23,815 bases of DNA from a virus: IMG/VR virus record IMGVR_UViG_3300020186_000392, positions 1 through 23,815 of that record; one strand, written 5' to 3'. Position 1 is the first letter of the stretch; every line of letters starts with the position of its first letter. Shown here in pieces: positions 401-23,815 of the stretch. The translations under genes and the position numbers were made by a program. Under the pieces are notes generated by a model, which made no database searches, was not told where the DNA came from, and worked only from the letters and a program-made list of their open reading frames with translations.

Positions 401-1075
401 TTATTCGTTAAGTCTTCCCTTGTTTTCCCCATATCCAGCTTTCTTTTTTAAGTTCATTATATCATCTTCTGATATTACTTGAAAAGACCAACCTCTTAAT
501 TGACAGTGATGTTTGGCGGCATTCCATTTTGATTGATTTTGCATTAATTTGCATTGATTCGCAGGTTTGATTTCCCAAATCTCTATCGCTCCATCACTAT
601 ACTCCACCAATAAGTCAGGGAAATATTGCTTCTTTTTGGCTCGGAAGAAATACTCCACAGAGAATGGCTCTACTTCATATCTAAGAACATCACCTATTTT
701 CTCCAATGATTCATATACTTCTAATTCATAACCACTTCGATAATGCAACTGTTTACCATTGTTCTTCTCGGATATGATATAACCTTCTTTGAAGTTTGGT
801 AATTTTCTTTTCTTGTTTGGATTTTTGGTGTCGTACATGACTGTCGCACGAAGTTGTCCATTTTGAGGACACTTCACAGATGGATGTTTTGTGCGAAAGT
901 GTAAACGAAGGTCACGCACCGGACAGCCACAATGCTTGAGCGGACAAACCAAGTATTCCCTGCCCTCTTCATGACCTTCAATGATGTGATCTCTCATTTC
1001 AGGATACGTATTGAAAATCTCAGCACAAACAAAGCAACAAAACTTCCTTTGGTTGTTATCTTGTGGGAATATCAT
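401..1075 (-). CDS. TnsA-like PD-(D/E)XK endonuclease with N-terminal C2H2-type zinc fingers
   Basis: A 224-residue protein. The N-terminal third has two zinc-finger-like units: CFVC followed by H-x4-H (about residues 14-35), then a second Cys pair with H-x4-H (about 44-64). The C-terminal half carries the pattern of a TnsA-type restriction-fold nuclease: an early Glu in YRSGYELEVY, then FPDLLVEY with the acidic residue, then EIWEIKP with the E-x-K pair. Such nucleases cut DNA in transposons and phage mobile or head-completion functions; the substrate here is unknown. ATG at 1075 overlaps the stop of the upstream ParB-like gene (ATGA), so the two are probably translated together. The assignment rests on motif reading. 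Confidence 0.6.
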   Translation of the reverse strand: MIFPQDNNQRKFCCFVCAEIFNTYPEMRDHIIEGHEEGREYLVCPLKHCGCPVRDLRLHFRTKHPSVKCPQNGQLRATVMYDTKNPNKKRKLPNFKEGYIISEKNNGKQLHYRSGYELEVYESLEKIGDVLRYEVEPFSVEYFFRAKKKQYFPDLLVEYSDGAIEIWEIKPANQCKLMQNQSKWNAAKHHCQLRGWSFQVISEDDIMNLKKKAGYGENKGRLNE

Positions 1076-1811: not shown

Positions 1812-2408
1812 ATGAAAAATCCATTCATTATTGGAGTTGGTGCCCAAATCGCAAATGGCAAAGACGCGCTTTGTAATTACTTGGCAGACAAATTAGGTTC
1901 AAATTGGCATCGTGCATCATTTGCCAGTAATGTAAAGAGAATTTATTGCGAAGCATTTGGTGTTGATCTTGATTTTATTGAAAAGTGGAAGAGAGTTGAT
2001 GAGCCGCCACCTGGATTCAAAATGAACATAAGAAAAGGACTTACATTCATTGGAGATGGATATCGACAAATACAGCCAAATATCTGGATTGATATGCTTC
2101 TCAAAAACAATGAACGAAATTTAATAATTAGTGACGCACGTTATAAGAATGAAGCCGACGCCATCCGTAAAAACGGCATAGCAATTTTACTGTGGCGACC
2201 CGGACATGAGAACGATATTCAAAACGACAGCGAACAACAACTGATGCCTTTTGTCAATCAATTGAAGCGAACTAAAGATGGGGAGATTAGCGATCCATCA
2301 ATTCCTTTTGATTTGTGGATAAAAAATGATGGGGACATTGATAGTTTATATGGAAAGATCGATAACATCATCATCCCATATGTGAACAATGTCCGAAATA
2401 ATAGATAA
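1812..2408 (+). CDS. deoxynucleoside monophosphate kinase (T4 gp1-like)
   Basis: A 198-residue protein, close in length to T4 gp1 (about 240). The P-loop is at residues 10-18 (G-AQIAN-GKD), a variant of GxxxxGK[ST] found in this family with Asp after Lys. A later LIISDARYKNEADAI segment followed by a hydrophobic strand and RPG fits the LID/adenine side of the family. These enzymes phosphorylate dNMPs, including phage-specific modified ones, to supply dNTP synthesis in the infected cytoplasm. The start is supported by TGGAGT seven bases upstream. The last 20 bases overlap the start of the HldE-like gene, indicating translational coupling. Confidence 0.75.
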   Translation: MKNPFIIGVGAQIANGKDALCNYLADKLGSNWHRASFASNVKRIYCEAFGVDLDFIEKWKRVDEPPPGFKMNIRKGLTFIGDGYRQIQPNIWIDMLLKNNERNLIISDARYKNEADAIRKNGIAILLWRPGHENDIQNDSEQQLMPFVNQLKRTKDGEISDPSIPFDLWIKNDGDIDSLYGKIDNIIIPYVNNVRNNR

Positions 2409-3807
2409 AATTAGAAGTAAACGAGTTCGGGTTGCCGTCATTGGTGACTCGATGATTGACGTATACCATTATGGCAAAGTCAGTCGCATCTCTCCCGAAT
2501 TCCCAGTACCTATCCTTCATTCAAAAGAAAACCACCAGGAACTAGTTCCTGGTGGTGCTGCCAACGTTTGCTACCAATTCTCACATCTAAACGCAAAAGT
2601 ACACCTATTTGCTCCTTTGGACCTAGACGCTCTTAACATATTTAAACATAAATTTAATTTTGATGTATCTGGATGTCCAATTCTACCTGATGGATCATTT
2701 ATTCCAAAGAAAATACGTTATTATGATGACAACTTCCCATTGCTAAGAAATGACATAGAGAAACCAAATTATGGATTAGATAATTTGACTTCAATTAGAG
2801 AATCCTTATTCTCTAATTTTATCGATTATGGACAGTTTGATGTGGTGATTCTAAGCAATTACAACAAAGGATTATTCGATTCAGACTTTACGACAAAAAT
2901 ATTGTCTTATTGTCGAAAACACAACATTCCTACTGTCGTTGATCCAAAAAACAATCCTGAATGGTGGTGGGACTGTGATTATTTCAAACCAAACGCAGCA
3001 GAAGCAGAAAAAATGACTGGGCGGTTTGATTGGAAACAACAATGCGAAATGTTGAAAAACTGTGCAAAGAAAGGCATAGTGATTACACAATCGGGTTCAG
3101 GCGTTGTTGGAATGGATGAATTTGGAGAATTGTTTGAATATCGCCCACGTACCACTATAAAAGATGTCAGCAGTGTAATTGGTGCAGGTGATGCCTTCTC
3201 AGCCGTTATGGGGCTTTCTATCGCACATGGACTGCCTTTACGAGAAGCAGTCAAGTGTGCTTTTGAAGCTGGAACACAATATGTCAAGGCTCGACACAAC
3301 AGACCAATTGCATTGTATGAACTGCATCGTCAACTCGACCCACTGAATGCCAAGATTGTACCAATTGAAGAATTGGCACGATTGAGGAATGGTGTGTATA
3401 AAGATTATCGTTGGGTTTTTAGCAATGGTTGTTTTGATCTAGGAATTCACGTTGGGCATATTGCTACACTCCAGGCAGCCAAGAGTCGTGGAGATAAACT
3501 AATTGTAGCAGTAAACTCTGACGAAAGTGTCAAAAGACTAAAAGGACCAACTAGACCAATTGTAACTCTGAATGACCGCATGAAAACGGTCGCAGCACTG
3601 GAATGTGTTGATTTTGTCGTCTCGTTTGAAAAAGATGTGCCTTACAATGTAATTGATGCCATCAGACCAAATGTATTAGTCAAAGGGTCAGATTGGGCAA
3701 ACAAAACAATTAGTGGTGTTGATTTGGTAGATGAAGTGTTTTTGGTTGATTACATTCAAGGACTAAGTACAACCAGTATAATCGAGAAAATCAAGCAAAA
3801 TGGATAG
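2389..3807 (+). CDS. hldE: HldE-like bifunctional heptose-phosphate kinase / nucleotidyltransferase
   Basis: A 472-residue two-domain protein, the same length as E. coli HldE (477). Domain 1 (about 1-320) is a PfkB/ribokinase-type sugar kinase: VIGDSMIDVY near the N-terminus, PGGAANV near residue 54, and the catalytic GAGDAF at 265-270. Domain 2 (about 340-472) is a cytidylyltransferase-like nucleotidyltransferase: SNGCFDLGIHVGH with H-x-G-H at 354-357, then VLVKGSDW and the end segment with GLSTTSI. In bacteria HldE makes ADP-heptose precursors for LPS inner core by phosphorylating heptose-7-P at O1 and adenylating the product. Here it may alter host envelope sugar or supply a phage sugar; the glycosyltransferase at 19257-20024 is a possible partner (inference). 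The gene carries two perfect inverted repeats (2531-2556, 2793-2818). Confidence 0.85.
   Translation: MSEIIDKIRSKRVRVAVIGDSMIDVYHYGKVSRISPEFPVPILHSKENHQELVPGGAANVCYQFSHLNAKVHLFAPLDLDALNIFKHKFNFDVSGCPILPDGSFIPKKIRYYDDNFPLLRNDIEKPNYGLDNLTSIRESLFSNFIDYGQFDVVILSNYNKGLFDSDFTTKILSYCRKHNIPTVVDPKNNPEWWWDCDYFKPNAAEAEKMTGRFDWKQQCEMLKNCAKKGIVITQSGSGVVGMDEFGELFEYRPRTTIKDVSSVIGAGDAFSAVMGLSIAHGLPLREAVKCAFEAGTQYVKARHNRPIALYELHRQLDPLNAKIVPIEELARLRNGVYKDYRWVFSNGCFDLGIHVGHIATLQAAKSRGDKLIVAVNSDESVKRLKGPTRPIVTLNDRMKTVAALECVDFVVSFEKDVPYNVIDAIRPNVLVKGSDWANKTISGVDLVDEVFLVDYIQGLSTTSIIEKIKQNG
2531..2556. repeat. 26-bp perfect palindrome inside hldE
   Basis: ACCACCAGGAACT is followed directly by its exact reverse complement, with no loop. 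It falls on the codons for the conserved LVPGGA motif of the kinase domain, so codon choice has been bent to give the palindrome. No T-run follows, so it is not a typical terminator. Confidence 0.8.
2793..2818 (+). repeat. 11-bp inverted repeat with 4-base loop inside hldE
   Basis: AATTAGAGAAT, loop CCTT, then ATTCTCTAATT and TTATC. It resembles an AT-rich hairpin with a short T-run but lies in the middle of the hldE reading frame, so it would act inside the gene if at all. Confidence 0.6.
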
Positions 3808-4963: not shown

Positions 4964-5130
4964 GTGAACTACCCACGACCCTAAAGGGTCGGGGCTTCCC
5001 GTTTCAACCTCGGTCGCCTAAGTATCCAATTAAGGATGCACGGTCTTATACCAAGTCCACGGGCTTTACTTTCGGGCGTTCCGCCCGTAGTTTATCATCC
5101 CCTTTCGGGGTGTTCTAAGTGCATCACCGC
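4964..5130 (-). ncRNA. candidate omega RNA scaffold of copy 1
   Basis: The right half of the element is rich in stems: CCCC-GAAA-GGGG, GGGCG-GAA-CGCCC inside a CGGGC/GCCCG pairing, ATCC/GGAT, and the terminal CGACCC/GGGTCG hairpin. In IS605 elements this region is transcribed as the TnpB guide RNA, and the 15-20 bases beyond the right end act as guide. For this copy the guide would be AAGGTTGATAATTCAC, which lies in the interrupted gene. The RNA 5' end is a guess. Confidence 0.45.
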
Positions 5131-5312
5131 TTGGTTTTCGTGGCGATACAAGATAATAGAGTCAGTCGTACTGGTTTTATTCCCACGAAAGTAGTATTTG
5201 TTTTTGCTTCAATTTTTAGTGCATCGCCTTCATCCCCTACCCTAAAGGGTTGCACCGCCCAAAGCGGCGGTGCAACATCTACCGATGTAGGGGCTTTCGG
5301 CTCCGAAGAATG
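4964..5312 (-). mobile_element. IS200/IS605-like mini-element, copy 1 (no transposase)
   Basis: A 349-bp element read leftward. Its left end lies directly 3' of TTTAC (5317-5313 on the minus strand), the target known for IS605, and its right end finishes GTAGTTCAC at 4964. The left end folds into a CCCCTAC/GTAGGGG stem enclosing small hairpins, one with a 9-bp GC-rich arm (TGCACCGCC). The right end has a CGACCC-TTTA-GGGTCG hairpin preceded by GGGAAGCCC, typical of IS605 right ends and TnpB guide-RNA scaffolds. No tnpA or tnpB is present and there is no target duplication, as expected of this family. It is nearly identical to copy 2 (11692-12038) in opposite orientation, with differences mostly in a short AT-rich segment. 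It interrupts a small phage gene. Confidence 0.85.
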
Positions 5313-5625: not shown

Positions 5626-6179
5626 GTTGGCTCCTTACTTTTGGCACAACCCCCACATTGGATGCTGTCGCCTTTTTGAACAAAACGATTACCGGCAGGA
5701 TGCCCACACCGATCACAGGACAGTTTTCGCATGAAGTTCTTCATCGTGATAAACTTTATACGCATTTTGCGAGCTTCTGCAACCTCTCGTTCCATCGCTT
5801 GATACTTCTTTATCACCTTTGGCATTCTTTTATCGACCTTGAAGAAAAGACACCTTAGTTCCCACCAATTGCCCTGATAGTGAACTAATTTGTCACTTCC
5901 CAATACGATTTGATGTCGTTTGCAACCACACAACGTGGAGACGCTTTTTGGTTCAATTTTTTTGTCCACTGGACGTTTGCACTTCAGGCACTCAGAGTCA
6001 ATTGACGTTGAGGGGAATCCACAATTGACGCATCTAATCTTAGAACTATCCAAATGAAACCCGTGTGTAGATTGGTTCGGTTGCATGTTTTGCTCGGAAA
6101 AAGCGCCACAAAGATGGCATTGTTCCTGGTGTCGCCTCAAGTAAAGGCATCCGCAGTCATCACATTTTAGAACGCTCAT
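5619..6179 (-). CDS. multi-zinc-ribbon hypothetical protein, 186 aa
   Basis: Several Cys pairs in series: CDDCGC and CHLCG near the N-terminus (about 6-24), CVNCG and CLKC (about 50-67), CGCKRH (about 84), and a C-terminal CDRCG...CGGC ribbon (about 155-178). This spacing fits three or more treble-clef or rubredoxin-like zinc ribbons with a basic helical segment (about 115-150) between the last two. Such proteins often bind nucleic acid or partner proteins, but no family was recognised. It is upstream of and overlaps the 81-residue gene. Confidence 0.6.
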   Translation of the reverse strand: MSVLKCDDCGCLYLRRHQEQCHLCGAFSEQNMQPNQSTHGFHLDSSKIRCVNCGFPSTSIDSECLKCKRPVDKKIEPKSVSTLCGCKRHQIVLGSDKLVHYQGNWWELRCLFFKVDKRMPKVIKKYQAMEREVAEARKMRIKFITMKNFMRKLSCDRCGHPAGNRFVQKGDSIQCGGCAKSKEPTC

Positions 6180-6200
6180 AACCGTAATTCTATACGTTTT

Positions 6201-6521
6201 TTAGTGTCTAAACAAGAACATTTTGGTGATTTTTGCTTCCAAGAACGTATTGTGTGCTGCTTTCGCACGCTCTAATTTTTCTTTTTCTGTTGGTGTGTGA
6301 TTTGCTTCATAAATGGCTTGTTGGGCAATCACCTCATTGCGAAGCCAAACCTCATGATGATCTGACCACATCCAAAAAACAAGTCCGGATAAAAATAAGA
6401 TAAACATTATACCTACAGAAATCGCTAATAGTTTAGCATAACCAGTGGTTGCTGCAAATATAACCAAAAGCTGCTTCATTGCATTATCTGATTTTACATC
6501 TTCAATATTTTGTTCTTCCAT
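6201..6521 (-). CDS. small membrane protein, 106 aa
   Basis: Residues about 16-52 are strongly hydrophobic (QLLVIFAATTGYAKLLAISV and onward to a Trp-rich end), enough for one long or two short membrane helices, followed by a soluble, charged helical C-terminal half. The acidic N-terminus has no signal-peptide cleavage site. The topology is compatible with a phage membrane accessory protein, for example a holin- or spanin-like protein, but no family signature is visible. It lies 2 bases downstream of the 290-residue gene and is probably co-transcribed with it. Confidence 0.55.
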   Translation of the reverse strand: MEEQNIEDVKSDNAMKQLLVIFAATTGYAKLLAISVGIMFILFLSGLVFWMWSDHHEVWLRNEVIAQQAIYEANHTPTEKEKLERAKAAHNTFLEAKITKMFLFRH

Positions 6522-6523
6522 TT

Positions 6524-7396
6524 TTACGCTCGGTTAAATCCAAAATCACGCATATTTTCTATTAGTTGATGTATGTTTTCTTGTGGCATACCAATTAGTT
6601 CACCTAATCGTTCATAATAATAGCTACTAACTTCATTATCTCTTACTGCTTGTATTACTATTTGAACAATCTGTTTGACATGATAAGGAATCCCAACAAC
6701 TATACTTCTCGTCCGACTGTGTTTTGTACCAAAATGTTCAACTGTTTCTACTTGCATCCCACGTACATATGCCTCTTGAAGCAGCAAAGGTAAAATTGTT
6801 TCTCTGGACAAAGAACTTTCATCGAAGATTGCTGCTGGTTTCCTACCGGCCAAAACTGCCGCCACATCATCAGCTATTCCAGCGTCGTCTAAATATGATG
6901 GAGTCGGACAATCAATTGTCGCTCGATAATTTCTATACTTTTCAATCAAAAGTATTGCCTGCTTGCCCAATGAATTAAGATCATCTCCAATAAGTTCTTT
7001 CAAGTCTCGTTCTGAATGATTTGTATTTCCAATATCCCATATTATTACATTTGGATCGGGAGTTGATGCCCCATGTGGATTCGCAACAAATGTACAATGA
7101 TATTGAAGAAAGTGTCCAAATGTTTCCTCTTCTTCATCCTGTAATGGGTCTACTCCCCATTTCATGCCAGTAATATACAAATCATACAAACGATCATTGT
7201 ATTGCAATAAAAATGATACGTTGAATGGATTACTTAAACAATTCTGAATATCTTTGATGGAGTTATTAACTGAATCAGCAGTGAAATTACCTCTAATCTC
7301 CGAACGATTGAATTGACCAATGTTTAAAGTCATGTTGGTAACTCGTACCATAATGAAAAAGTCATTGGTCGTCAATCTACTCAAAGGGGCATACAT
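6524..7396 (-). CDS. hypothetical protein, 290 aa
   Basis: Not recognised. The N-terminal half (about 20-125) is rich in beta-type sequence with aromatic residues and an acidic cluster (QDEEEETFGHFLQYH), reminiscent of virion or baseplate proteins. The middle has a Pro/Ala-rich hinge and the C-terminal 70 residues are helical. The start at 7396 has AGGA about 8 bases upstream; a second Met (MVRVTN, residue 16) is possible. It is divergent from the terminase gene with only 35 bases between, so the two share a control region. Confidence 0.5.
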   Translation of the reverse strand: MYAPLSRLTTNDFFIMVRVTNMTLNIGQFNRSEIRGNFTADSVNNSIKDIQNCLSNPFNVSFLLQYNDRLYDLYITGMKWGVDPLQDEEEETFGHFLQYHCTFVANPHGASTPDPNVIIWDIGNTNHSERDLKELIGDDLNSLGKQAILLIEKYRNYRATIDCPTPSYLDDAGIADDVAAVLAGRKPAAIFDESSLSRETILPLLLQEAYVRGMQVETVEHFGTKHSRTRSIVVGIPYHVKQIVQIVIQAVRDNEVSSYYYERLGELIGMPQENIHQLIENMRDFGFNRA

Positions 7397-7431
7397 ATGT
7401 GAATTCCTAATACTCCTCCTTATATATCAGT

Positions 7432-9099
7432 ATGGATCAAACACATTATGGATATGAGCAGTGGCAAGTAGAAGAAATACGTAAATGCACAGCAAGCTAT
7501 GGTTATTTTTGCGAAAACTACGTCAGGATCATCCATCCAATGAAGGGGATCATACCTTTTCGCCTTTATGATTTCCAAAAAAGAGTTGTATCTGAATACG
7601 ATAAAAATCAATTCAATATCATCAAAAAGTTTCGACAAGCAGGCTTAACCACCGTCTCAGTAATTTGGGCGTTGTGGCGATGCCTGTTCAAATTTGAACA
7701 AAGATGTATGGTTCTGTCCAAGTCAGACCGAGAAGCAATCGGCGTCGGCAAGATTGTAGAAACCGTTTTGGAAAATCTTCCTGCCTGGATGAGTCCAGTA
7801 ATGAAGAATGATAACGATCACGAAAAGGAATTCGCTGATACTCGCTCCGTACTATGGTTCTATACTTGTGCCGCCGCACGTTCTAAAGCACTTACATATC
7901 TGATCATTGACGAAGCTGCGTTCATTCAAAACATGGACGAACACTGGAAAGCCATGTACCCTACCCTTTCCACTGGTGGTAATTGTATTGTTATTTCTAC
8001 CGTCAATGGTATGGGCAACTGGTACGAAGAGACTTGGCACCGCGCAGAAGATAAAAAGAACCAGTTCCATATTATTTCTCTGGATTATAAAGAACACCCA
8101 GACTACCGGACTGTAGAATGGGAACGTAAAACCAGAGCCAACATTGGAGAAAAAGGTTGGCTACAAGAATATTGCGGATCATTCCTCGGATCGGGCGAAA
8201 CTTACATCGATGCCAAAATATTGTCTGAATTGGAAGAATTGTGTCTTGATCCAATAGAGAAACTATTCCCAGAGTGGGACACAACTCCGCAAGACGAATA
8301 CGATGAAGAAGACTTGGCAAATCCAAACTATGAAAAAGGCGCTCTATGGGTGTGGAAAGACCCACAACCAGGAAGAGAATACATCGTTGCTGCCGATGCT
8401 GGCGAAGGTGTGCGCGCCGACAATAGCGCGTTCCACGTGATTGACACTTCTAGTTTTGAACAAGTTGCCGAATTTTATAGCAATGAAATCCCGGTTCATA
8501 AATTCTCAATGGTCATATCACAAGTCGCCACATTCTACAATGAAGCTTTGTTGGTAATGGATCACGACACAGGACCAGGAATGGCTGTGTTGAATCGTCT
8601 TGAACACACAATCCATTATCCAAATATGTATTGGGAAAACAAAAAAGGACGCGGCGAAAAGTCCGGCGTCACTCTGAGCAGAACTTCAAGACCGTTAATA
8701 CTTGAAACTTTGCAGACGAGTTTGTTAAATAGGTTGATACGAATAAGAAGTCGTCGCTTAATTCGTGAACTGAAGAACTTTGTTTACAACAAGTCTAAAC
8801 AACGTCCTGAAGCGGTCAAAGGCAAGACGGACGACCTTGTTTTATCATTGGCAATGGGATTGCACGTAACAGATGTTGCTAATCGCGATTTGCCCGTTGG
8901 CGCAGAACCGATGAACGGACGAATTGGCAAGGCAATGACCGGAAAGAACTTTGAAGATGTTAAGAAGCATTTGCAGAGTGGGTTGCCCGAAGAGTTCTTT
9001 GAGGTTGATACTCCAATTGATTTCTATGATCTTATGCCTAACTTAATGAAAAAAGAACAACATTATCGAAATCCAATCTTAAAGGAATTCGGCTGGTAG
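7432..9099 (+). CDS. terminase large subunit (T4 gp17-like)
   Basis: The packaging motor ATPase and headful nuclease. A 555-residue protein with the full two-domain layout. The ATPase has a Walker A variant with R-Q-A-G-L-T-T at 68-74, typical of T4-type terminases, Walker B YLIIDEAAF with D160/E161, and coupling motif CIVISTVNG near 185. The RNase H-like nuclease has catalytic acids in VAADAGEG (D322), VMDHDTG (D377) and GKTDDLVLSLA (D467/D468). It binds the portal and a small subunit (not seen nearby) and pumps DNA into proheads. It is a complete gene, and no inserted homing element is seen. Confidence 0.95.
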   Translation: MDQTHYGYEQWQVEEIRKCTASYGYFCENYVRIIHPMKGIIPFRLYDFQKRVVSEYDKNQFNIIKKFRQAGLTTVSVIWALWRCLFKFEQRCMVLSKSDREAIGVGKIVETVLENLPAWMSPVMKNDNDHEKEFADTRSVLWFYTCAAARSKALTYLIIDEAAFIQNMDEHWKAMYPTLSTGGNCIVISTVNGMGNWYEETWHRAEDKKNQFHIISLDYKEHPDYRTVEWERKTRANIGEKGWLQEYCGSFLGSGETYIDAKILSELEELCLDPIEKLFPEWDTTPQDEYDEEDLANPNYEKGALWVWKDPQPGREYIVAADAGEGVRADNSAFHVIDTSSFEQVAEFYSNEIPVHKFSMVISQVATFYNEALLVMDHDTGPGMAVLNRLEHTIHYPNMYWENKKGRGEKSGVTLSRTSRPLILETLQTSLLNRLIRIRSRRLIRELKNFVYNKSKQRPEAVKGKTDDLVLSLAMGLHVTDVANRDLPVGAEPMNGRIGKAMTGKNFEDVKKHLQSGLPEEFFEVDTPIDFYDLMPNLMKKEQHYRNPILKEFGW

Positions 9100-9399
9100 T
9101 CTATTGTGCTTTGACTTGTAATTCAGCAACAAGCCCTTTTGTTTCAATGAATTGAAACTTGTTGCTGGAGTTTTCATATAAGAAAAATTCATATATTGAA
9201 GTTGCGAATGCGTAACAATGGACGACAAACACGAATCAGGAAGTGGAACTGTCTTGATGTCATTACGAGAGAAGAATTTTTGCCAAACAATTCTTGCTTC
9301 CGGACTGACGGCTCCTCGATCACACATCAGTCCATTGTGACTTATTGAAGTTACTTCCATTGCCAGTTCGTACAAAAATGGACCCCACCGTTCTTTCAA
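9079..9399 (-). CDS. hypothetical protein, 106 aa (N-terminus possibly upstream of an insertion)
   Basis: The visible frame starts with TTG at 9399 and encodes KERWGPFLYELAMEV, then DRGAVSPEARIVWQKFF, a well-formed helical segment that looks like a real protein core; the family was not recognised. No good ribosome binding site precedes the TTG, and the frame is open for only four codons upstream before a stop. About 200 bases further upstream, ATG 9661 opens a short frame (MFENLAKYYYNINSK...) that reaches VLT next to a copy of the sequence found at LTLKE. Joining them would give a 127-residue protein (see ncRNA 9400-9622). The last 21 bases overlap the terminase end. Confidence 0.5.
   Translation of the reverse strand: MKERWGPFLYELAMEVTSISHNGLMCDRGAVSPEARIVWQKFFSRNDIKTVPLPDSCLSSIVTHSQLQYMNFSYMKTPATSFNSLKQKGLLLNYKSKHNRLPAEFL
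9124..9167 (+). terminator. terminator-like hairpin after terminase
   Basis: CAGCAACAAG (9124-9133) pairs with CTTGTTGCTG (9158-9167); inside, TTTCAA (9142-9147) pairs with TTGAAA (9152-9157) with an 8-base bulge. GAGTTTTC follows. It starts 24 bases after the terminase stop but lies inside the opposing minus-strand frame. Confidence 0.35.
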
Positions 9400-9622
9400 A
9401 GTTAGAAAATCTTACCTTGAAAGTTCGCTAGGACAACAAGCATCAACCTTAACCCTCATCGGAGGTTGACCTTTAATGTGTTGCCCTGCATGGCCTTGCG
9501 GCAAGGCTCTTATCTGCTATAACCTTGCGGTCACTCGCAGAATACTTGCTTTTTCTGTAGTTCTGTTTTCACCCAAAACTTTTACCTGACTTAGTAGAAG
9601 TCAGAACCGAAGTAGTCTTGCT
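9400..9622 (-). ncRNA. structured RNA candidate: independent ncRNA, leader or removable insert
   Basis: On the minus strand this stretch folds into many nested stems: CTGACTT/AAGTCAG, GTTTT/AAAAC, CAGAA/TTCTG, ACC-GCAA-GGT inside CTGC/GCAG, GCCTTG-CCG-CAAGGC, GGGCAACA/TGTTGTCC enclosing TCAACCT/AGGTTGA. An outer pairing GAAAATCTTGCC/GGTAAGATTTTC (9655-9644 with 9416-9405) could close the whole. A sigma70-like promoter lies at its 5' edge. It does not match an RNA family I can name with confidence. It would be the 5' leader of the 9079-9399 gene, or a 199-bp insertion in that gene bounded by TTCTGACTT and TTCTAACTT. Confidence 0.45.
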
Positions 9623-9628
9623 GTTGAT

Positions 9629-9657
9629 ATTATAGTAGTATTTGGCAAGATTTTCAA
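9629..9657 (-). promoter_or_regulatory. sigma70-like promoter of the structured RNA
   Basis: On the minus strand TTGAAA (9657-9652), exactly 17 bases, then consensus TATAAT (9634-9629); a start near 9622 is predicted. It overlaps the short frame from ATG 9661, so either the promoter or that frame, or both, are real. Confidence 0.5.
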
Positions 9658-9674
9658 ACATTTATGCCAACTGT

Positions 9675-9896
9675 TCAAAACCCTTTAGTGCTATCCACAG
9701 TTGTGACTTCCCACGCATTGCATTGAGGGACAAGATATGCGTTTATTTTGCCAAATATTGAACTAGACTCATTTCCAGATTCATCACAATAAGAAAAGCT
9801 GATTGATGACTTGCCGACGTACCCCAAAACAAAAACGCCTGGAGGTAAATCGGATTCGGTTTTCATTGCTTCATTTACAAAATCTCTGAATCGCAT
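9675..9896 (-). CDS. small protein with possible capsid-targeting N-terminus, 73 aa
   Basis: Begins MRFRDFVNEAMKTESDLPPG, followed by a small beta-rich domain (VFVLGYVGKSSISFSYC). The RFRDFVNEA start closely resembles the T4 internal-protein targeting peptide MKTYQEFIAEA in spacing and character, with Glu-Ala at the expected cleavage point (V-N-E rather than L/I-x-E). It lies between the tail-tube-like gene and the structured RNA on the same strand. An internal head protein is a plausible but untested role. Confidence 0.5.
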   Translation of the reverse strand: MRFRDFVNEAMKTESDLPPGVFVLGYVGKSSISFSYCDESGNESSSIFGKINAYLVPQCNAWEVTTVDSTKGF

Positions 9897-9918
9897 GAAT
9901 TATCTATTGACCTAAGAA

Positions 9919-10779
9919 TCAAAGTTCATCGTTCATTTCAATAGTATGACCTGAGCTCGCAGTCAATTTAATGCCTCTAGATTCGGGAGCCTTCTTTGGA
10001 ATGGCCTCATATCGAACTGAAGAATACGACAATGACAACGCAGTTTCGGCTTCTGATCCATCTATGGTTTTGATCCAGGTGTTTTCCATGTGCCAACTTT
10101 CAACATGAACGTTATTGTTGTACAAACGAATTTCTAATGGGAATTTTTGTCCACTCATAAAACAAGAAAACAGTTCTTTGGAATCAGCAGACGTAACAAT
10201 TTTAGAATCTAACCATTTTGCCTGACCTGGAATTAAAAACTTGGAATTCAAATGAGGAATTTCTGTTTCTGAAACGCACAAGGAAGGGCGTTGTCCTTCC
10301 GCCCAAAACATAGGAATTTCAACATTGTTATGAACTAATTTCCAAGAATACACATCAGGTTGTCCTGTAATATCCTTTGACATATGGCTGTATTTAACTG
10401 TAATAACTGTTGTAGCGACATCATTAGAACTATAGTCAAAGTCGGCACCGTGAGAAACTAGGGATAGATTTTTGAATGTCAACGTGTATAATGATTTACC
10501 ACAACCATCTAGAGCAGTGAATGTCAACGTTTCATTGAACAATTGTCGTTTGGCAAGCATGTCAGCCCATACAAGAGCGTGCATGCTATCTTTGCCTGTG
10601 GTTACATCGTAGTAGGCGAACTTGATGGTTCTGTTGACATAATCAAAACTAACACATTTGATGAATGTGTCAGGTAAATGTTCTCCAGCTAGAGTCCAAC
10701 GAAATTTGCGAGAAAAAATGGTTTCTGGCTTGCCAAGATCGCCAATTCCCATATTTGTAGAAGTAGTGTTTTCAATCAT
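9919..10779 (-). CDS. tail-tube-like virion protein (T4 gp19 fold, duplicated)
   Basis: A 286-residue protein with two similar halves. The first (about 24-135) starts FRWTLAGEHLPDTFIKCVSF and has a central helix followed by LTFTALDGCGKSLYTLTFKNL and VTVKYSHM, the beta-sandwich plus helix layout of contractile-phage tail tube proteins. The second half (about 145-262) contains HLNSKFLIPGQAKWLDSKIV and ends with a similar strand series. Two tube-like domains in one protein suggest a tube initiator, terminator or a jumbo-phage paralogue rather than the main tube subunit (inference). No signal peptide is present. Confidence 0.6.
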   Translation of the reverse strand: MIENTTSTNMGIGDLGKPETIFSRKFRWTLAGEHLPDTFIKCVSFDYVNRTIKFAYYDVTTGKDSMHALVWADMLAKRQLFNETLTFTALDGCGKSLYTLTFKNLSLVSHGADFDYSSNDVATTVITVKYSHMSKDITGQPDVYSWKLVHNNVEIPMFWAEGQRPSLCVSETEIPHLNSKFLIPGQAKWLDSKIVTSADSKELFSCFMSGQKFPLEIRLYNNNVHVESWHMENTWIKTIDGSEAETALSLSYSSVRYEAIPKKAPESRGIKLTASSGHTIEMNDEL

Positions 10780-10795
10780 TGAGGAGTATCTTTCT

Positions 10796-11593
10796 ATGTT
10801 AAGACCAATTACGAAGATTCACGGTGGGAAAAGTTATTTAAAAAAATGGATTATTGATAAATTTCCCAAAAACTATGAAAAAATGAAGTACGTGGAGCCG
10901 TGTGGTGGAGCGGCAAGCGTACTGCTTAATAAAATACGCTCGTTCTCAGAAATTTATAATGATCTAGATGTAGGACTATATAATTTAGTTTACTGTCTAA
11001 AAACCCATTCAGTAGAGTTAATCGAAAAAACACGCGCCATACCGTATACTGAAGATTCATTCCAAACCGCAAGAAACAATACATCACACGAAGGAATCGG
11101 GGCGGCTGTAGATGAACTAGTTAAGCGACGTATGAGTCGTGGCGGGTTAGGCGCTTATTTTAGTTGGAGTAATCGCGAACGTGGCGGCAAGCCGGGGGAT
11201 GTCAACGCATGGGAAACTTTCACTCAGCACTTTCTGCCACTTATCTGTGAGCGTTTGAAAGATGTAGAAATACGCAATCAAAATGTATGTGACCTACTAC
11301 CAGAGGTGGACGATTCAGACCTGTTGACATATATCGATCCACCCTATCTACAAGCAACTCGTTCAGTTAAATCTGTGTACAATGTTGAAATGGATGATCA
11401 AGAACATTGCCGTTTAGCAAATGTCCTGAATCAGATGAAGTGTAAAATAATTTTATCCGGATACTTCAATCCATTGTATGCTAAACTTTATAAAGGGTGG
11501 AGAATGGAAAGTTGTACTATTGCCAATCACTCGTCGCAGAGTAAAAAAAAGGAATCTCGTGTGGAATGTCTTTGGATGAATTATGCTAAATAA
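10796..11593 (+). CDS. dam: Dam-like DNA adenine-N6 methyltransferase with foreign C-terminus
   Basis: The start is ATG 10796, with GAGGAG upstream. A 265-residue D12-class adenine methylase, which transfers methyl from AdoMet to adenine N6. The N-terminal KIHGGKSYL segment and EPCGGAASVL are the AdoMet-binding motifs; the catalytic motif is DPPY at residues 181-184. From residue 185 on (LQATRS... to the end) the protein is a diverged duplicate of the sequence at 12614-12853: 49 of 79 aligned residues are identical by my count. This fits a chimaeric gene whose 3' end was replaced when the homing endonuclease directly downstream arrived. The stop overlaps that endonuclease start by 11 bases. 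Methylation may protect phage DNA. Confidence 0.85.
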   Translation: MLRPITKIHGGKSYLKKWIIDKFPKNYEKMKYVEPCGGAASVLLNKIRSFSEIYNDLDVGLYNLVYCLKTHSVELIEKTRAIPYTEDSFQTARNNTSHEGIGAAVDELVKRRMSRGGLGAYFSWSNRERGGKPGDVNAWETFTQHFLPLICERLKDVEIRNQNVCDLLPEVDDSDLLTYIDPPYLQATRSVKSVYNVEMDDQEHCRLANVLNQMKCKIILSGYFNPLYAKLYKGWRMESCTIANHSSQSKKKESRVECLWMNYAK

Positions 11594-11691
11594 ACTAAGT
11601 GAACTTGAAATTGGTAAAGCTGCGGAACACCTAGTTTGCGCAGATTTGATACTGAAAGGTTATCGTTCGTTTCTTGCCGATCAAGGTTTAC

Positions 11692-12038
11692 CATTCTTCG
11701 GAGCCGAAAGCCCCTACATCGTAGATGTTGCACCGCCGCTTTGGGCGGTGCAACCCTTTAGGGTAGGGGATGAAGGCGATGCACTAAAGATCGAAGCAAA
11801 ATAATTCCTACTTTCGTGGGAATAAAACCAGTACGACTGACTCTATTATCTTGTATCGCCACGAAAACCAAGCGGTGACGCACTTAGAACACCCCGAAAG
11901 GGGATAACAAACTACGGGCGGAACGCCCGAAAGTAAAGCCCGTGGACTTGGTATAAGACCGTGCATCCTTAATTGGATACTTAGGCGACCGAGGTTGAAA
12001 CGGGAAGCCCCGACCCTTTAGGGTCGTGGGTAGTTCAC
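11692..12038 (+). mobile_element. IS200/IS605-like mini-element, copy 2 (no transposase)
   Basis: A 347-bp element, nearly identical to copy 1 and on the opposite strand. It is preceded by TTTAC (11687-11691), starts CATTCTTCGGAGCC and ends GTAGTTCAC at 12038. Cutting exactly there joins TTA C to CT TAC and recovers the Leu-Pro-Tyr-Asp sequence of the endonuclease. The left end carries the same branched stem (CCCCTAC/GTAGGGG with TGCACCGCC/GGCGGTGCA inside). It has no transposase gene and no target duplication, so it must be moved by enzymes acting in trans. The few differences from copy 1 point to recent spread of both. Confidence 0.88.
11870..12038 (+). ncRNA. candidate omega RNA scaffold of copy 2
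   Basis: Same stem series as in copy 1: CCCC-GAAA-GGGG, GGGCG-GAA-CGCCC within CGGGC/GCCCG, ATCC/GGAT, then the terminal CGACCC-TTTA-GGGTCG hairpin. The adjacent guide would be CTTACGATGTCATTG, the endonuclease codons next to its conserved Asp. With a TTTAC TAM this RNA would direct a TnpB to the uninterrupted endonuclease allele. The 5' boundary is approximate. Confidence 0.45.
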
Positions 12039-12582
12039 CTTACGATGTCATTGTTGATATGCCTTCGGGACTAAAAAGAATTCAAGTTAAATCAAGTTGC
12101 AAAATGTGCAGGATTCCTCGAAAAGGAAAACTTGCTTCCTCTCCTGTCTACCGTTATTCACTTCGATGGGGCAAAGGATCAAAAAGAAAGGCTATAGAGG
12201 AATGCGATTATTTTGCATTCGTCGCAATGGACACAAAAAATATCGCTTACGCACATATTGATGACATACGAAACAAAAATGGGAAAGTTATACAATGTTT
12301 AGAGTTAAGATCAAAATCGATTGACTGCGAACTTGACGACAAAAATCATAAACCTTTTGGACGTTATATTGAAGATCACAATTGTTTTCCAGAAACAACT
12401 TTATTTATTAAAAATTCGAGAAGAGAAATTCCTAATATATATCCGACCAAATCTGGAACCTGGCGAGTTAGAAAAATCGTTGACGGCAAACGTGTAAATG
12501 CAGGTAGCTTTCCCACAATTGATAAAGCAATAATGGCATGCAACAATGCGTTTGGAACAACAGGCGTTAAATTTGATGAAGT

Positions 12583-12607
12583 ATCACATCAAAAACTTTG
12601 ATGTGAT
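12583..12607 (+). terminator. hairpin at the end of the homing endonuclease cassette
   Basis: ATCACATCAAA (12583-12593), loop AAC, then TTTGATGTGAT (12597-12607), a perfect 11-bp stem that contains the endonuclease stop codon (12599-12601). It sits at the junction between the cassette and the resident dam remnant starting at 12614. No T-run follows, so termination is uncertain; it may instead mark the cassette edge. Confidence 0.45.
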
Positions 12608-12613
12608 GAAATT

Positions 12614-12853
12614 CTACCCTCGACACGAACCGCAAAAAAGGTATACAATGTTGAAATGGACGAAGCTGCCCATATAAAACTTGCCCGAGTTCTAAACGCA
12701 GTAAAAGGAAAAGTGTTGCTGAGTGGGTACTACAGTCCACTTTACCTTAAACTTTATAAAGGCTGGAATCTCCATGTCAAGGAGATTGCCAACCACAGCA
12801 GTCAGTCCAAAAACAAGGAGCGGAGGTTAGAATGCCTCTGGACCAATTTCTAA
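12614..12853 (+). pseudogene. displaced 3' end of the resident dam gene
   Basis: From codon 12614 the frame encodes LPSTRTAKKVYNVEMD and continues to the dam C-terminus ending CLWTNF (stop 12851-12853). It matches residues 185-263 of the upstream Dam with about 62 percent identity. Homology starts right after the position of the DPPY motif, so the endonuclease cassette entered there. Its end overlaps the zinc-ribbon gene at 12832, an overlap expected for the original dam operon; this supports the downstream copy as the resident one and the upstream copy as imported. A 65-residue product from ATG 12656 would lack all catalytic motifs. Confidence 0.85.
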
Positions 12854-13065
12854 TGAGATGCATCCGATGCGGTTGGGAGGTAATAGTCGCCAAAAAAGTC
12901 GGACGACATTGGTGGTGCAATGATTGCATTAGTGGAACGAGATACACAGATGCGTTTGCAACATTATTGCCCCAACTGGTGGAAAAACCATCCGTTCCCA
13001 AAAAACTAATCGTTCCAAGAGTTACAGATATCGATATAGAGGAAATTCCCGATGAGTCTCTTTGA
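12832..13065 (+). CDS. small zinc-ribbon protein, 77 aa
   Basis: One zinc ribbon: CIRCGW at about residues 10-13 and CNDC at about 29-32, with a basic segment between, then an acidic tail. GGAGG lies just before the ATG. It overlaps the dam remnant by 22 bases and the TyrRS gene by 14 bases, so it originally sat in a dam-ribbon-tyrS operon. Such ribbons usually bind nucleic acid or protein partners; the function is not recognised. Confidence 0.65.
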   Translation: MPLDQFLMRCIRCGWEVIVAKKVGRHWWCNDCISGTRYTDAFATLLPQLVEKPSVPKKLIVPRVTDIDIEEIPDESL

Positions 13066-14239
13066 TTTAATCAGCAATGGCGCAACCATCCACCAACCAG
13101 ACGAACTCAAGAAAAAACTAGAGTCTGGTCGTCCATTGCGTGTCAAGTACGGCATCGACCCTACCGCTGCTCACGTTCACCTGGGTCATCTCGTCGGACT
13201 ACTCAAACTCAAGCAATTCATTGATGCGGGTCATCGTGGCGTAATTATTATCGGTAATTTCACCGCTCTAGTGGGCGATCCTACCGGACGCGACCAAACA
13301 CGCGCACGCCTCACACCAGATCACATCAAAGCCAACAGCGAACATTACTTGGATCAAATCAACAGAGTTATTGACCTGTCCGCTTGCGAAGTACACCACA
13401 ATGGTTCATGGTTTGCTCCTCTGCATTTACAAAATGCAATTGAGTTGATGTCCAACACCACAGTAGGACAATTACTCGCACGTGATGATTTTGCCAACAG
13501 AATAAAGTCCCAAGAACCAATACACTTGCATGAACTTCTCTACCCTGTCCTGCAAGGGTTTGACAGCGTACAGATCGCCGCAGATGTGGAAATTGGTGGT
13601 AACGATCAGTTATTCAACTTCATGCTTGCTCGCGATATGCAGAAAAAGGCGGGTCAAGATCAACAAGTCTGCATTACCGTTCCCATTCTAGTCGGTACAG
13701 ATGGCGTGCGTCGGATGGGCAAAAGTCTTAATAATTACATTGGGTTAGATGAAGAAGCTGATTCTGTCTTCTCCAAAACAATGAGTATTACAGATGAACT
13801 CGTTCCCGACTGGTGGAGATTGCTTCCCGTTGATGACCAGAAAATACCAGAAGCAGAGCCAATGGTTCAAAAGAAGGCATTGGCGTTCAGACTTGCGAAA
13901 TTCTTGCATGGCGAATTGATTGCGTTAGATGCAGCAAACGCTTGGCATAGAAGGTTTACATTACGTCAAGACCCAGAGGACATTCCTGTTGTTGACATTG
14001 CCCGTATCATGCTCAAAGATGGGCGTATGGGTATCTGTAATGCTCTGAAGGCTTGCGGATTAGTTACATCAAACAACGAAGCAAGAAAGATCATATCCCC
14101 CACTTCGGGCAATAGCGGAGTAACTGTTGGGTCGGATATGATAAAAATTGAAGACTCAACAGTTCAAATTATCATCGAAGATGGAATGATTCTACGAGTT
14201 GGAAGGCGCAGAATCGTTCGGATACATTTGACGGATTAG
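13052..14239 (+). CDS. tyrS: tyrosyl-tRNA synthetase
   Basis: A 395-residue class I aminoacyl-tRNA synthetase that charges tRNA-Tyr. The HIGH motif appears as HLGH at 43-46, after YGIDPTAAHVH; the KMSKS motif is RMGKS at 221-225. GGNDQLFN carries substrate-binding residues of TyrRS. An S4-like RNA-binding domain (about 328-395) is present and complete, so the enzyme looks functional; length fits the bacterial TyrZ-type enzymes. No tRNA gene is visible in the window, so it should act on a host tRNA or one encoded elsewhere in the phage. GAGG precedes the ATG, inside the zinc-ribbon gene. Its 3' end overlaps the opposing methyltransferase by 48 bases. Confidence 0.93.
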   Translation: MSLFDLISNGATIHQPDELKKKLESGRPLRVKYGIDPTAAHVHLGHLVGLLKLKQFIDAGHRGVIIIGNFTALVGDPTGRDQTRARLTPDHIKANSEHYLDQINRVIDLSACEVHHNGSWFAPLHLQNAIELMSNTTVGQLLARDDFANRIKSQEPIHLHELLYPVLQGFDSVQIAADVEIGGNDQLFNFMLARDMQKKAGQDQQVCITVPILVGTDGVRRMGKSLNNYIGLDEEADSVFSKTMSITDELVPDWWRLLPVDDQKIPEAEPMVQKKALAFRLAKFLHGELIALDAANAWHRRFTLRQDPEDIPVVDIARIMLKDGRMGICNALKACGLVTSNNEARKIISPTSGNSGVTVGSDMIKIEDSTVQIIIEDGMILRVGRRRIVRIHLTD

Positions 14240-16210: not shown

Positions 16211-17553
16211 TAGGTATCGCTGGAGTTGATGAGGCATCCTATCTAACCTTCTTGGGGCTTCACGCTCTACAGCATAGAGGTCAGGAAGGTGCGGGAATTG
16301 CGGCTAGTGACGGAACAGATTATTCCGTACTGAGACGACGTGGATTAGTTGCTGATATCTTCCAAGAAGAAGTTTTACGAGGACTTAAAGGATCAGCAGC
16401 AATTGGACACACACGGTACTCTACCAGTGGTGGTGACACCGATTGTAATTTACAGCCATTGACCATGCGCAGTCGCATGGGATGGACTGCCGTTGCTCAT
16501 AACGGCAATTTGACAAATGCCAAAGAATTAATTGAGAGATTGGAAAAAGAAGGCGCAATTTTCCACACAACCTCCGACACAGAAGTTATTTTACACGTAA
16601 TGGCAAGATGCCGCGATATTCCGCTCCCAGATGCCGTAGAACATGCCGTTGGTCACTTAGATGGCGCATATTCATTATTGATAATGAATCAAGACTATAT
16701 GATCGCTGTGCGTGATCCTTATGGATTCCGCCCACTGATCGTTGGAGATTGTGGAGACGGGAAAGCATTTGCTAGTGAGACGGTTGCATTTGATTTGATG
16801 GGCGGAACACCTGAAAGAGAAGTCAGACCTGGCGAGATGATTGTTGTTGATCTGAAAAGAAAAACAATGACATCCAAACAAGTTTTGCAACCAAAATCAC
16901 CAAGTCGATGCGTATTTGAGTTGATTTACTTTGCGCGTCCAGATAGCGAAGTATTCAGCGTTCCAGTTTATCAGGCTCGTAAGTCTTTAGGAAGAAGATT
17001 AGCGAAAGAACAGCCAGCAATTGCTGACATTGTAGTTCCCGTTCCTGACTCTGGCGTGGCGGCTGCACTTGGATACGCAGAAGAACTTGGATTGCCTTTT
17101 GAAATGGGAATAATGAGAAGTCACTATTCCCAAAGAACCTTCATTCAACCCAAACAATCTATGCGGGAATTAGGTGTACGTCTCAAGTTGAGCGGAGTTA
17201 AATCCGTCATTGAAGGCAGACGCATCGTTGTGGTTGATGATAGTCTTGTTCGTGGGACTACGGCAAAAAAGATTATCAAGATGTTGAGGGATTGTGGGGC
17301 GGACGAAGTGCATTTACGTGTTTCCTCTCCGCCAACAATAAGCCCTTGTTTTTATGGCATGGATACGCCCACAAAAGGTCAATTAATTGCTTCTAATCAA
17401 GATATAGAAGGAATACGTGAATATATCGGAGCGGATAGTTTGGGATACCTGAGCAGAGAAGGGTTGTCTCAGGTATTCGGCAAAGGTTATTGCAGTTCTT
17501 GTTTTTCGGGTGAATATCCTACACTTGTACCACTAACCATCAAAAATCATTAA
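16198..17553 (+). CDS. purF: amidophosphoribosyltransferase PurF, ATT start codon
   Basis: First committed step of purine synthesis: PRPP plus glutamine to phosphoribosylamine. A 451-residue protein with an Ntn glutaminase domain (about 1-230) and a phosphoribosyltransferase domain with the PRPP loop VVVDDSLVRGTT near 343-355. The nucleophile Cys must follow the initiator Met: codon 16201 is TGT, giving CAIVGIAG, and the codon before it is ATT. An in-frame TGA at 16177 excludes ATG, GTG or TTG upstream; TTG 16252 would delete the active site. AGAGGAG lies 8 bases before the ATT. Cys238, Cys384, Cys432 and Cys435 match the 4Fe-4S ligands of B. subtilis PurF, so this is the iron-sulfur type. 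Confidence 0.92.
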   Translation: MCAIVGIAGVDEASYLTFLGLHALQHRGQEGAGIAASDGTDYSVLRRRGLVADIFQEEVLRGLKGSAAIGHTRYSTSGGDTDCNLQPLTMRSRMGWTAVAHNGNLTNAKELIERLEKEGAIFHTTSDTEVILHVMARCRDIPLPDAVEHAVGHLDGAYSLLIMNQDYMIAVRDPYGFRPLIVGDCGDGKAFASETVAFDLMGGTPEREVRPGEMIVVDLKRKTMTSKQVLQPKSPSRCVFELIYFARPDSEVFSVPVYQARKSLGRRLAKEQPAIADIVVPVPDSGVAAALGYAEELGLPFEMGIMRSHYSQRTFIQPKQSMRELGVRLKLSGVKSVIEGRRIVVVDDSLVRGTTAKKIIKMLRDCGADEVHLRVSSPPTISPCFYGMDTPTKGQLIASNQDIEGIREYIGADSLGYLSREGLSQVFGKGYCSSCFSGEYPTLVPLTIKNH

Positions 17554-18380: not shown

Positions 18381-18693
18381 TTAATTTAATGGTATATAGG
18401 CGTCGTCAAATTGATTTGGCATTATCGATATGTTGACATCAATATGGTGAACTACCCCGCCGCTAAAGACGGCGGGGCTTCCGATCCAACCAATAGCCCA
18501 AATTTTATGGGTCTTACATCAGGGCAATCGGCTATCCCTCTCGTTCGCTTCGCTCGCTCCCTACAGGGCAAACTTTTCTCATTCAGAGAAAAGTAGGGGT
18601 TTTCTCGCCGCCGTAGATAAAAATAATAATTGGAACTATAATTAGTCCTAATTTAGCAGTTCTTCTGATTATATCAGGGTCTTCACAATACAT
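18381..18693 (-). pseudogene. small membrane protein split by a mini-element (48 aa when restored)
   Basis: ATG 18693 has AGGAAAA upstream. The first 27 codons (MYCEDPDIIRRTAKLGLIIV then PIIIFIY) run to 18613. Read into the element, the frame ends after 7 more codons. Removing 18447-18612 joins Tyr27 to a further 21 codons (HIDVNISIMPNQFDDAYIPL and Asn) ending at TAA 18381-18383. The product would have one membrane helix (about 15-27). The following structural gene has its own binding site 12 bases on, so the operon spacing is also restored. Function unknown. Confidence 0.78.
18447..18612 (-). mobile_element. IS200/IS605-like mini-element, copy 3 (second subfamily)
   Basis: A 166-bp element read leftward. 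It lies 3' of TCTAC (18617-18613 on the minus strand) and ends GGTAGTTCAC at 18447. The left end has a CCCTAC/GTAGGG stem enclosing CTTTTCTC/GAGAAAAG; the right end has GGAAGCCCCGCC with a GC-rich terminal hairpin. Only the architecture, the AAGACC and GAAGCCCCG boxes and the GTTCAC end are shared with copies 1 and 2, so it belongs to a different subfamily. No protein is encoded. Bases 18478-18545 reappear, inverted, at 23748-23815 with one mismatch. The candidate guide beyond the right end is CATATTGATGTCAACA. Confidence 0.82.
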
Positions 18694-20024: not shown

Positions 20025-20044
20025 ATACACTAATGGAGTATCAC

Positions 20045-23178: not shown

Positions 23179-23724
23179 TCATAATTTATTCTTTTCAGTA
23201 TCAAGGACTATAAGCTCTTGACAAATAACAATTTTATCACCAAGCCAATAAAAACCAGATTGGCGATTAAATTGCCCTTTCCATACCCAAATAGGAATCT
23301 CTATAAGATCAATCTCATGATTGCAAGCTGCATTCAAATCACTATCTGAAGTGAATCCGCAATTAGTGCTTTTGCATTTGAACGTCTTGGCTAACCTGTT
23401 TGATTTATGGACAAAACCACATGAACTACAACGTTGACTTCTAAACTTATTGTCTTGTTCAACAAAAATAAAACCTTTATCTTCGCTCAACCCAATAAGT
23501 TTTCTTTTTATCAATGTGTATGTCCAATGTGATAACTTGCGACTATTTCTTTTTCCTTTTCGTATATTAACTATCTTTTCTAGTCGAATCTCTTTCACAT
23601 TATTAAAATCCAACTGATTCAAACTCCAATTGATATAATTTTTACGATGTTCTTGCGCTCTACGGAAACCGCAACTACCTTTCTTTTTTCTTGACAAAAT
23701 ATCTTGAATCTTACTTATATACAT
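23179..23724 (-). pseudogene. tnpB: C-terminal half of TnpB (RNA-guided nuclease), N-terminus absent
   Basis: 181 residues matching the second half of IS605-type TnpB. E49 (VKEIRLEKI) is the RuvC-II glutamate, the zinc ribbon is C99/C102 with C117/C122, and D129 (DSDLNAACN) is the RuvC-III aspartate. The RuvC-I aspartate and the RNA-binding N-terminal half are missing: upstream of 23724 the frame meets a stop (TAA) and then a small IS605-like segment. The second Cys pair is spaced by four residues instead of two, and the tail after D129 is long. No right end or guide-RNA hairpin follows the stop; a phage gene follows directly. As it stands it should not be an active nuclease. Confidence 0.75.
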
Positions 23725-23747
23725 AACGAAGGTTTAAGAACTCTCGG

Positions 23748-23815
23748 AACGAGAGGAATAGCCGATTGCCCTGATGTAAGACCCATAAAATTTGGGCTAT
23801 TGGTTGGATCGGAAG
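23748..23815 (+). mobile_element. partial IS605-like segment, copy 4 (cut by window edge)
   Basis: 68 bases match bases 18478-18545 of copy 3 in reverse complement with one mismatch. By that comparison the GC-rich right-end hairpin and GTTCAC end should lie just beyond the window. A CTCTCG-GAA-CGAGAG hairpin lies at its left edge (23734-23748). The left boundary was not found: the copy 3 left-end stem is absent here. It lies where the N-terminal half of the opposing tnpB should be. Confidence 0.65.

Follow-up and report, generated by a model that had tools for sequence, protein, structure and literature searches.

A homing-type nuclease gene has probably invaded the dam methylase gene of this phage, just after the codons of the catalytic DPPY motif, supplying the gene with a new 3' end (C1) and stranding the resident one (C2) further downstream. 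The arrangement lies in a window of 23,815 nucleotides (the whole stretch of DNA that was analysed, IMG/VR record IMGVR_UViG_3300020186_000392, to which all positions refer unless another locus is named; Table 1).

Table 1. Features of the window that bear on the dam gene, the nuclease gene and the TnpB-type elements.
Feature	Position	Strand	Similarity or other details
dam ORF, complete D12-class N6-adenine methylase, 265 aa	10796-11593	+	MethyltransfD12, phrog_56
dam 5' part, codons 1-184, last residues the catalytic DPPY	10796..11347	+	MethyltransfD12, phrog_56
C1, putatively imported dam 3' end	11348..11593	+	in frame with the 5' part, completes the 265-aa methylase
Nuclease ORF, predicted PD-(D/E)XK, split by a mobile element	11583-12601	+	
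Nuclease 5' piece, residues 1-36 and first base of codon 37	11583..11691	+	LEIGKAAEHLVCADL...DQGLP motif common to phage relatives
Non-autonomous TnpB-type (IS605/IS1341-like) element, 347 bp	11692..12038	+	after TTTAC; right end ...GTAGTTCAC
Nuclease 3' piece, remaining PD-(D/E)XK core and C-terminal domain	12039..12601	+	
AP2-like, predicted DNA-binding domain of the nuclease, residues 161-207	12410..12550	+	phrog_99, JWDelta similarity
C2, putatively resident dam 3' end	12614..12853	+	severed from the 5' part, without a gene start of its own
Zinc-ribbon ORF, next gene after the resident dam	12832-13065	+	start inside C2
Second copy of the TnpB-type element	4964..5312	-	97% identical to 11692-12038
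TnpB C-terminal part, different from the family of the nuclease-splitting element	23179-23724	-	

A duplicated 3' end in the dam gene

The dam ORF is matched by Pfam MethyltransfD12 (E 4.7e-17) and by phrog_56 (E 9.4e-55). A first, sequence-only reading had held that this gene is intact and that its residues from 185 to the end are duplicated downstream, and our analysis confirms it: C2 is identical to dam residues 185-263 at 49 of 79 positions (blastp E 2.4e-32), which is far beyond chance. C2, also matched by phrog_1996 and phrog_56, forms a single open frame from the counterpart of Leu185 through to the stop codon. The homology between the two ends begins at Leu185, the codon that follows D181-P-P-Y184, and thus directly behind the catalytic motif, as the same reading had it; judged from the sequence only, the junctions of the 5' part with C1 and with C2 diverge downstream of CTAC. 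The two ends flank the nuclease ORF, and it is the upstream one that is in frame with the 5' part. At its far end C2 is overlapped by 22 bp by the zinc-ribbon ORF, whose start codon and ribosome-binding-like sequence GGAGCGGAGG are located within C2.

An intron or an intein was considered as an explanation for this layout and rejected. No group I or group II intron was matched in Rfam at gathering thresholds, and no tRNA either, and the upstream dam ends in its own stop codon, so that nothing requires splicing. Two side observations can be added here. The insert has at its right margin a perfect inverted repeat (CACATCAAA/TTTGATGTG, 12585-12605), which lies across the stop codon of the nuclease gene, a few bases 5' of C2. 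Moreover, phrog_1996 (~150 positions) and phrog_23217 (109 positions) match the C-terminal or the N-terminal part of Dam only, which suggests that split or partial dam genes exist in other phages.

Related phages with an uninterrupted dam

Based on the terminase, the nearest named record is LR756511, a 595-kb uncultured giant phage (43%), and the terminase is nearer to those of two metagenomic relatives, namely L040, on a 430-kb contig (52%), and L039 (50%). A scan with an alignment of 5' parts from related Dam proteins returned 23 loci, including this phage itself (L034) and a remote dam-like ORF (L059) that was set aside. The comparison set therefore consists of 21 related phage loci with a full-length Dam, 16 of them distinct after near-identical ones were dropped; LR756511 was found separately. 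In all 21 loci (16 distinct) and in LR756511 there is one uninterrupted dam with one end and no second copy, and the two full dam genes per relative that would have spoken against the sequence-only reading did not turn up. Counted from DPPY, the dam end of these relatives is mostly 79 residues long, reaching 86 where extra C-terminal residues are present and 71 in the divergent L058. The nuclease was searched for in 19 records and was absent from all save this phage's own contig. A scan with C2 directly yielded one distant match only, a scan with the Dam of LR756511 yielded no matches, and a scan of genome contigs yielded one distant Dam, from a Thioalkalivibrio MAG.

L039 and L040 have a neighbourhood in common with the window, comprising the HNH gene, TerL, dam, a ferritin-like gene and homologues of the genes at 17550 and 18712, to which L040 adds HldE and a homologue of the gene at 20033. 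In both, this shared neighbourhood contains neither the nuclease nor a duplicate dam end, and the two loci can be taken to serve as empty sites. In L039 the ATG of the next gene lies inside the Glu-Cys codons and gives a 22-base overlap with dam, the very geometry of C2 and the zinc-ribbon gene. The expectation that relatives would show an uninterrupted dam followed directly by the zinc ribbon was borne out for dam in the 21 loci and failed for the zinc ribbon, of which no homologue was found in phages, viral contigs or the relatives' records; the gene was accordingly dropped as an exact anchor for the empty site. A contig of the same phage from another sample was likewise discarded as an empty-site witness, as it carries dam with C1 and ends at the repeated element.

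Two of the relatives show further peculiarities. In L036 (2267-3004) a cysteine-rich ORF that resembles HNH-type mobile endonucleases, with no confident Pfam match, overlaps the start of another dam of this clade; given this ORF, dam may be a recurrent target. In L039 (10831-11841) the homologue of the window gene 17550-18368 matches in two pieces separated by a gap of ~170 bp, possibly another insertion.

Which end is resident, and how the ends diverged

Across the 30 positions at which C1 and C2 differ, the letters of 15 relatives gave 102 votes to C2 and 42 to C1 (site bootstrap P 0.011), and of the columns invariant in these relatives C2 keeps 16/16 and C1 15/16. The GC3 values are 0.31 for C1 and 0.25 for the nuclease gene vs 0.49 for C2, with 0.36 for the dam 5' part and 0.39 for the zinc-ribbon gene; this contrast is supporting evidence only, because the pieces are short (~80 codons per dam end), and the codon use of C2 is itself unusual for this phage. 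Since C2 is nearer to the relatives and keeps the 22-bp overlap seen in L039, the comparison supports C2 as the resident end and C1 plus the nuclease as the insert. Here too the sequence-only reading holds up, which had assigned the downstream copy to the resident gene by its zinc-ribbon overlap and had the upstream copy arrive with the endonuclease. The polarity could in principle be reversed, with the 5' part and C1 resident and the nuclease inserted behind them together with a donor end, C2. The same final order would be expected in that case, and C1 is indeed in frame with the 5' part. We nevertheless regard this as very unlikely. C2 and not C1 is nearer to the relatives and overlaps the following gene in the conserved way, it is C1 and not C2 that matches the composition of the nuclease, and on this view the exact start of C2 at codon 185 would go unexplained.

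In the trees, C1, C2 and the dam 5' part all fall in the L039/L040 clade (100/99 for the 5' part, 88/88 for the ends), and C1 and C2 form a sister pair (93/75 in the larger tree, 98/95 in the smaller). Given that the two ends group together, the donor would be a related phage and not a distant one; for the same reason the trees single out no individual donor phage. The imported end does not group with a lineage other than that of the native end, and the donor would belong to the same clade or be unsampled. The phylogeny of the 3' ends against the 5' part had been proposed as a check together with the sequence-only reading, which counted a grouping of both ends as a simple tandem duplication against itself. 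The grouping is literally there; the simple tandem duplication is not, as the synonymous sites are saturated while the protein is conserved.

A partial duplication of the dam 3' end in place, with the nuclease inserted between the copies, would account for C1 and C2 being each other's nearest relatives. The divergence speaks against it: pS between the ends is 0.80 (saturated) and pN 0.33, with 28/23/51 differences by codon position. When neutral evolution was simulated to 56-63% nucleotide identity, ~20-26 of the 79 residues were left and ~1% of the runs were stop-free, yet C2 is stop-free, has all of the invariant residues and has no start codon from which the full end could be made. An untranslated copy could not have stayed intact so long, and we consider duplication in place highly improbable. 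The combination of saturated synonymous and conserved nonsynonymous sites instead indicates that the ends diverged as working genes in separate genomes. Likewise, the intactness of C2 implies that until recently both ends belonged to functional methylases and were under purifying selection, i.e. in different genomes, before they met.

The nuclease gene between the two ends

The ATG of the nuclease gene overlaps the dam stop codon, with an overlap of 11 bp. When the flanks of the mobile element are joined (TTTAC then CTTACG), they encode one 223-aa protein with ...DQGLPYDVIVDMPSGLKRIQVKSS... and bring ...DQGLP directly before YDVIVD... (GLPYD). Independent phage relatives conserve a DQGLPYDxxVD...RVQVK core, of which YD...RxQVK is invariant in ten aligned nuclease sequences. 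The joined nuclease matches phrog_24524 (E 4.3e-22) and PDDEXK_5 (E 3.6e-5), the latter with 24.2 bits and below the cut-off of 26.1, which is passed by two nuclease relatives tested. Its C-terminal domain matches phrog_99 (HNH endonuclease, E 3.9e-5) and is 35% identical to the C-terminal stretch of the HNH endonuclease of Achromobacter phage JWDelta (JJJA_0062), in which Pfam AP2 follows HNH_3, the AP2 match being below the Pfam cut-off. In the predicted structure, which is of moderate confidence, the AP2-like region forms strands and then a helix. A fold search with this model placed SPARDA nuclease chains and I-Ssp6803I at the top and two plant AP2 structures lower, all non-significant, and a sequence search of the joined nuclease against solved structures gave no significant match.

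We infer from this anatomy that the nuclease is a homing endonuclease. Like a free-standing homing gene, it combines predicted catalytic residues with a predicted DNA-binding part, and it sits at its target gene here and is absent from the same site in the relatives. The homing endonuclease of the sequence-only reading is thus retained as a putative PD-(D/E)XK nuclease with an AP2-like tail, with the qualification that the gene is interrupted in this genome. No allele carrying an intact copy of the joined nuclease was found, and around the nuclease relatives there were no duplicated gene ends, except for one 14-codon translated match at L020.

Alternatively, ordinary recombination might have brought in a donor dam with an adjacent PD-(D/E)XK nuclease, be it a restriction partner or a recombination nuclease, through a crossover in dam and an illegitimate right end, with no homing involved. 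This is possible because relatives of the nuclease often lie beside other methylases: they lie directly next to N6-adenine methylase genes, or overlap them, in L011, L012, L013, L015 and Klebsiella phage KO-TP1 (L033), and in L014 one lies near a D12 dam. The nearest relatives, commonly methylase-adjacent, are moreover without the AP2-like domain, which would suit a restriction-like or recombination role. Such adjacency can mean that a methylase-linked nuclease was converted to a homing enzyme, or that it was never a homing enzyme. However, despite these methylase neighbours, neither the joined nuclease nor that of L015 matched known restriction-enzyme or defence models, and the methylase-adjacent relatives are few, related, and found in the DNA-metabolism regions of phages, in which methylases are frequent. 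An additional AP2-like domain is a typical feature of mobile HNH-AP2 endonucleases, and, as with homing sites, the target gene is interrupted precisely after its best-conserved motif. On balance, we find ordinary recombination rather unlikely and favour invasion by a homing-type nuclease. As an observation in its own right, the phrog_24524-like PD-(D/E)XK family, of unknown function, is recurrently methylase-adjacent in small phages and could be a methylase-linked nuclease family.

A TnpB-type element inside the nuclease gene

The copies of the element that splits the nuclease gene are preceded by TTTAC and end in TTCAC. Apart from the two in the window, more copies occur in L065 and L066, also after TTTAC; the IMG/VR contigs with copies outside the window are 3300020213_000286, 3300020195_000651 and 3300020057_000772. 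At blastn sensitivity the element was not found in named phages and plasmids. A full-length related element, L076 (G021:16129-17771, on a 54.8-kb phage contig), has the same kind of ends and encodes a 409-aa TnpB, from which we conclude that the nuclease was silenced by a protein-less element of the TnpB type. Read from its sequence, the nuclease is thus split, and hence predicted to be dead in this genome, by an element without protein genes of its own.

Since there are several copies of the element, at which another contig of this phage breaks off or continues with a different flank, the window might be an assembly chimera. Contig IMGVR_UViG_3300020213_000476, from another metagenome, corresponds to window positions 5796-11704 at 99.98% and ends at the element. 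Against a chimera, the two flanks are halves of one nuclease gene in which DQGLPYD is restored in frame, and C2 is connected to the nuclease through unique sequence. That the flanks together restore a motif conserved in independent relatives shows the assembly across the element to be right, and the chance of a chimera is in our view next to negligible.

The right end of the element resembles the 3' end of an omega-RNA, and the sequence to the right of the in-nuclease copy would serve as a guide against intact nuclease alleles. Food for speculation is a broader scenario, which we judge unlikely: the PD-(D/E)XK-AP2 family would consist of free-standing homing elements that spread in phage methylase genes with spare 3' ends, making insertion cheap, and TnpB acting in trans would cut intact nuclease alleles (with a nuclease-sequence guide, by TTTAC) and home the small element into them. 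If true, one homing system would parasitise another.

Other features of the window

The TnpB fragment at 23179-23724 lies near the end of the window, and a 69-bp repeat at 23747-23815 has its match elsewhere, at 18478-18546; fragment and repeat probably represent another family of TnpB-type elements in this phage, the second one. The gene at 401-1075 (-) encodes a phage protein with a TnsA-like endonuclease domain (Pfam E 2.7e-17) and an apparent N-terminal zinc finger. The same stretch of phage DNA holds genes for an HldE-like protein (2389-3807), a tyrosyl-tRNA synthetase (13052-14239) and PurF (16252-17553); the synthetase and HldE are also present in the 430-kb relative containing L040.

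A proposed history of the locus

The cutting, the route of repair and the arrangement in the donor are the steps that we infer. The donor would have been a related phage, in which the nuclease gene probably lay directly behind the 3' end of dam. The nuclease would have cut the uninterrupted dam of the recipient in the codons just after DPPY. On the left side, repair could then have used the homology of the dam genes and run through the donor's C1 and nuclease gene, and on the right side it could have joined the copied DNA to the cut recipient end, C2. The outcome would be a chimeric, complete methylase made of the resident 5' part and the donor 3' end, followed by the nuclease gene and the stranded resident 3' end. 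In such an allele the cut site would be destroyed on both sides, and the allele would thereby be protected. The stranded C2 may survive partly because the start signals of the next gene lie in it. Insertion of the TnpB-type element would have come later, breaking the nuclease gene in two and ending its activity in this genome.

Comparison with known systems

In the open-access literature, which misses most subscription papers, we found no phage example in which a complete replacement end is supplied and no description of PD-(D/E)XK with an AP2-like domain as a free-standing homing enzyme. This putative nuclease architecture, and the nested attack on it by a TnpB-type element, add to the interest of the locus. 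The homing endonuclease I-Ssp6803I is intron-encoded and without an AP2 domain. It is a PD-(D/E)XK enzyme (PDB 2OST) and the fold match of our nuclease model to it is weak and below significance. The HNH-AP2 phage endonucleases, such as that of JWDelta, have the C-terminal AP2-like domain in common with the nuclease, but their catalytic core is HNH and not PD-(D/E)XK.

Phages offer two closer parallels. The ShiLan element is an HNH endonuclease gene in a mycobacteriophage DNA methylase (PMC11855218). As here, the endonuclease gene lies at conserved residues of a phage methylase, without an intron or intein, and the insert opens with 11 in-frame residues that are similar to those past the insertion site (PMC11855218). 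It differs in that the HNH gene is read out of frame within one continuous methylase, and in that the resemblance is short and provides no complete replacement end. The T4-type endonuclease genes mobE, in nrdA of phage Aeh1, and mobA, in the topoisomerase gene of T4, split their host genes (PMC2988022). They too are free-standing endonuclease genes that lie, with no intron, in a part of a phage gene that is critical for its function, but the host gene then yields two proteins that must reassemble, and no replacement 3' end is supplied (PMC2988022).

The nearest likeness is to the gene hybrids formed by mobile ORFs in fungal mitochondria, i.e. atp6 of Allomyces macrogynus and atp6, cox2, nad3 and atp9 of Glomus sp. 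(PMC3630166). The parallel with Allomyces atp6, which the sequence-only reading had already drawn, stands: an endonuclease ORF lies in the gene, a diverged foreign 3' end completes it, and the native end is found downstream (PMC3630166). As in the fungal hybrids, the native end is the one closer to the sister species (PMC3630166), although the sister phages are distant (~50% identity), which makes this point weaker than in the fungal cases. With this locus, a way for a selfish nuclease to avoid the cost of gene breakage, so far described from fungal mitochondria, would be extended to a giant phage, and the case is a clear one in that the imported end of the gene is distinguishable from the native one. 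The chimeric methylase also raises a directly testable question, namely whether homing reshapes phage methylase genes. Finally, the fungal hybrids involve LAGLIDADG or GIY-YIG endonucleases in mitochondria, whereas here the gene concerned encodes a phage methylase, and the putative PD-(D/E)XK nuclease has in turn been broken up by a transposable element.
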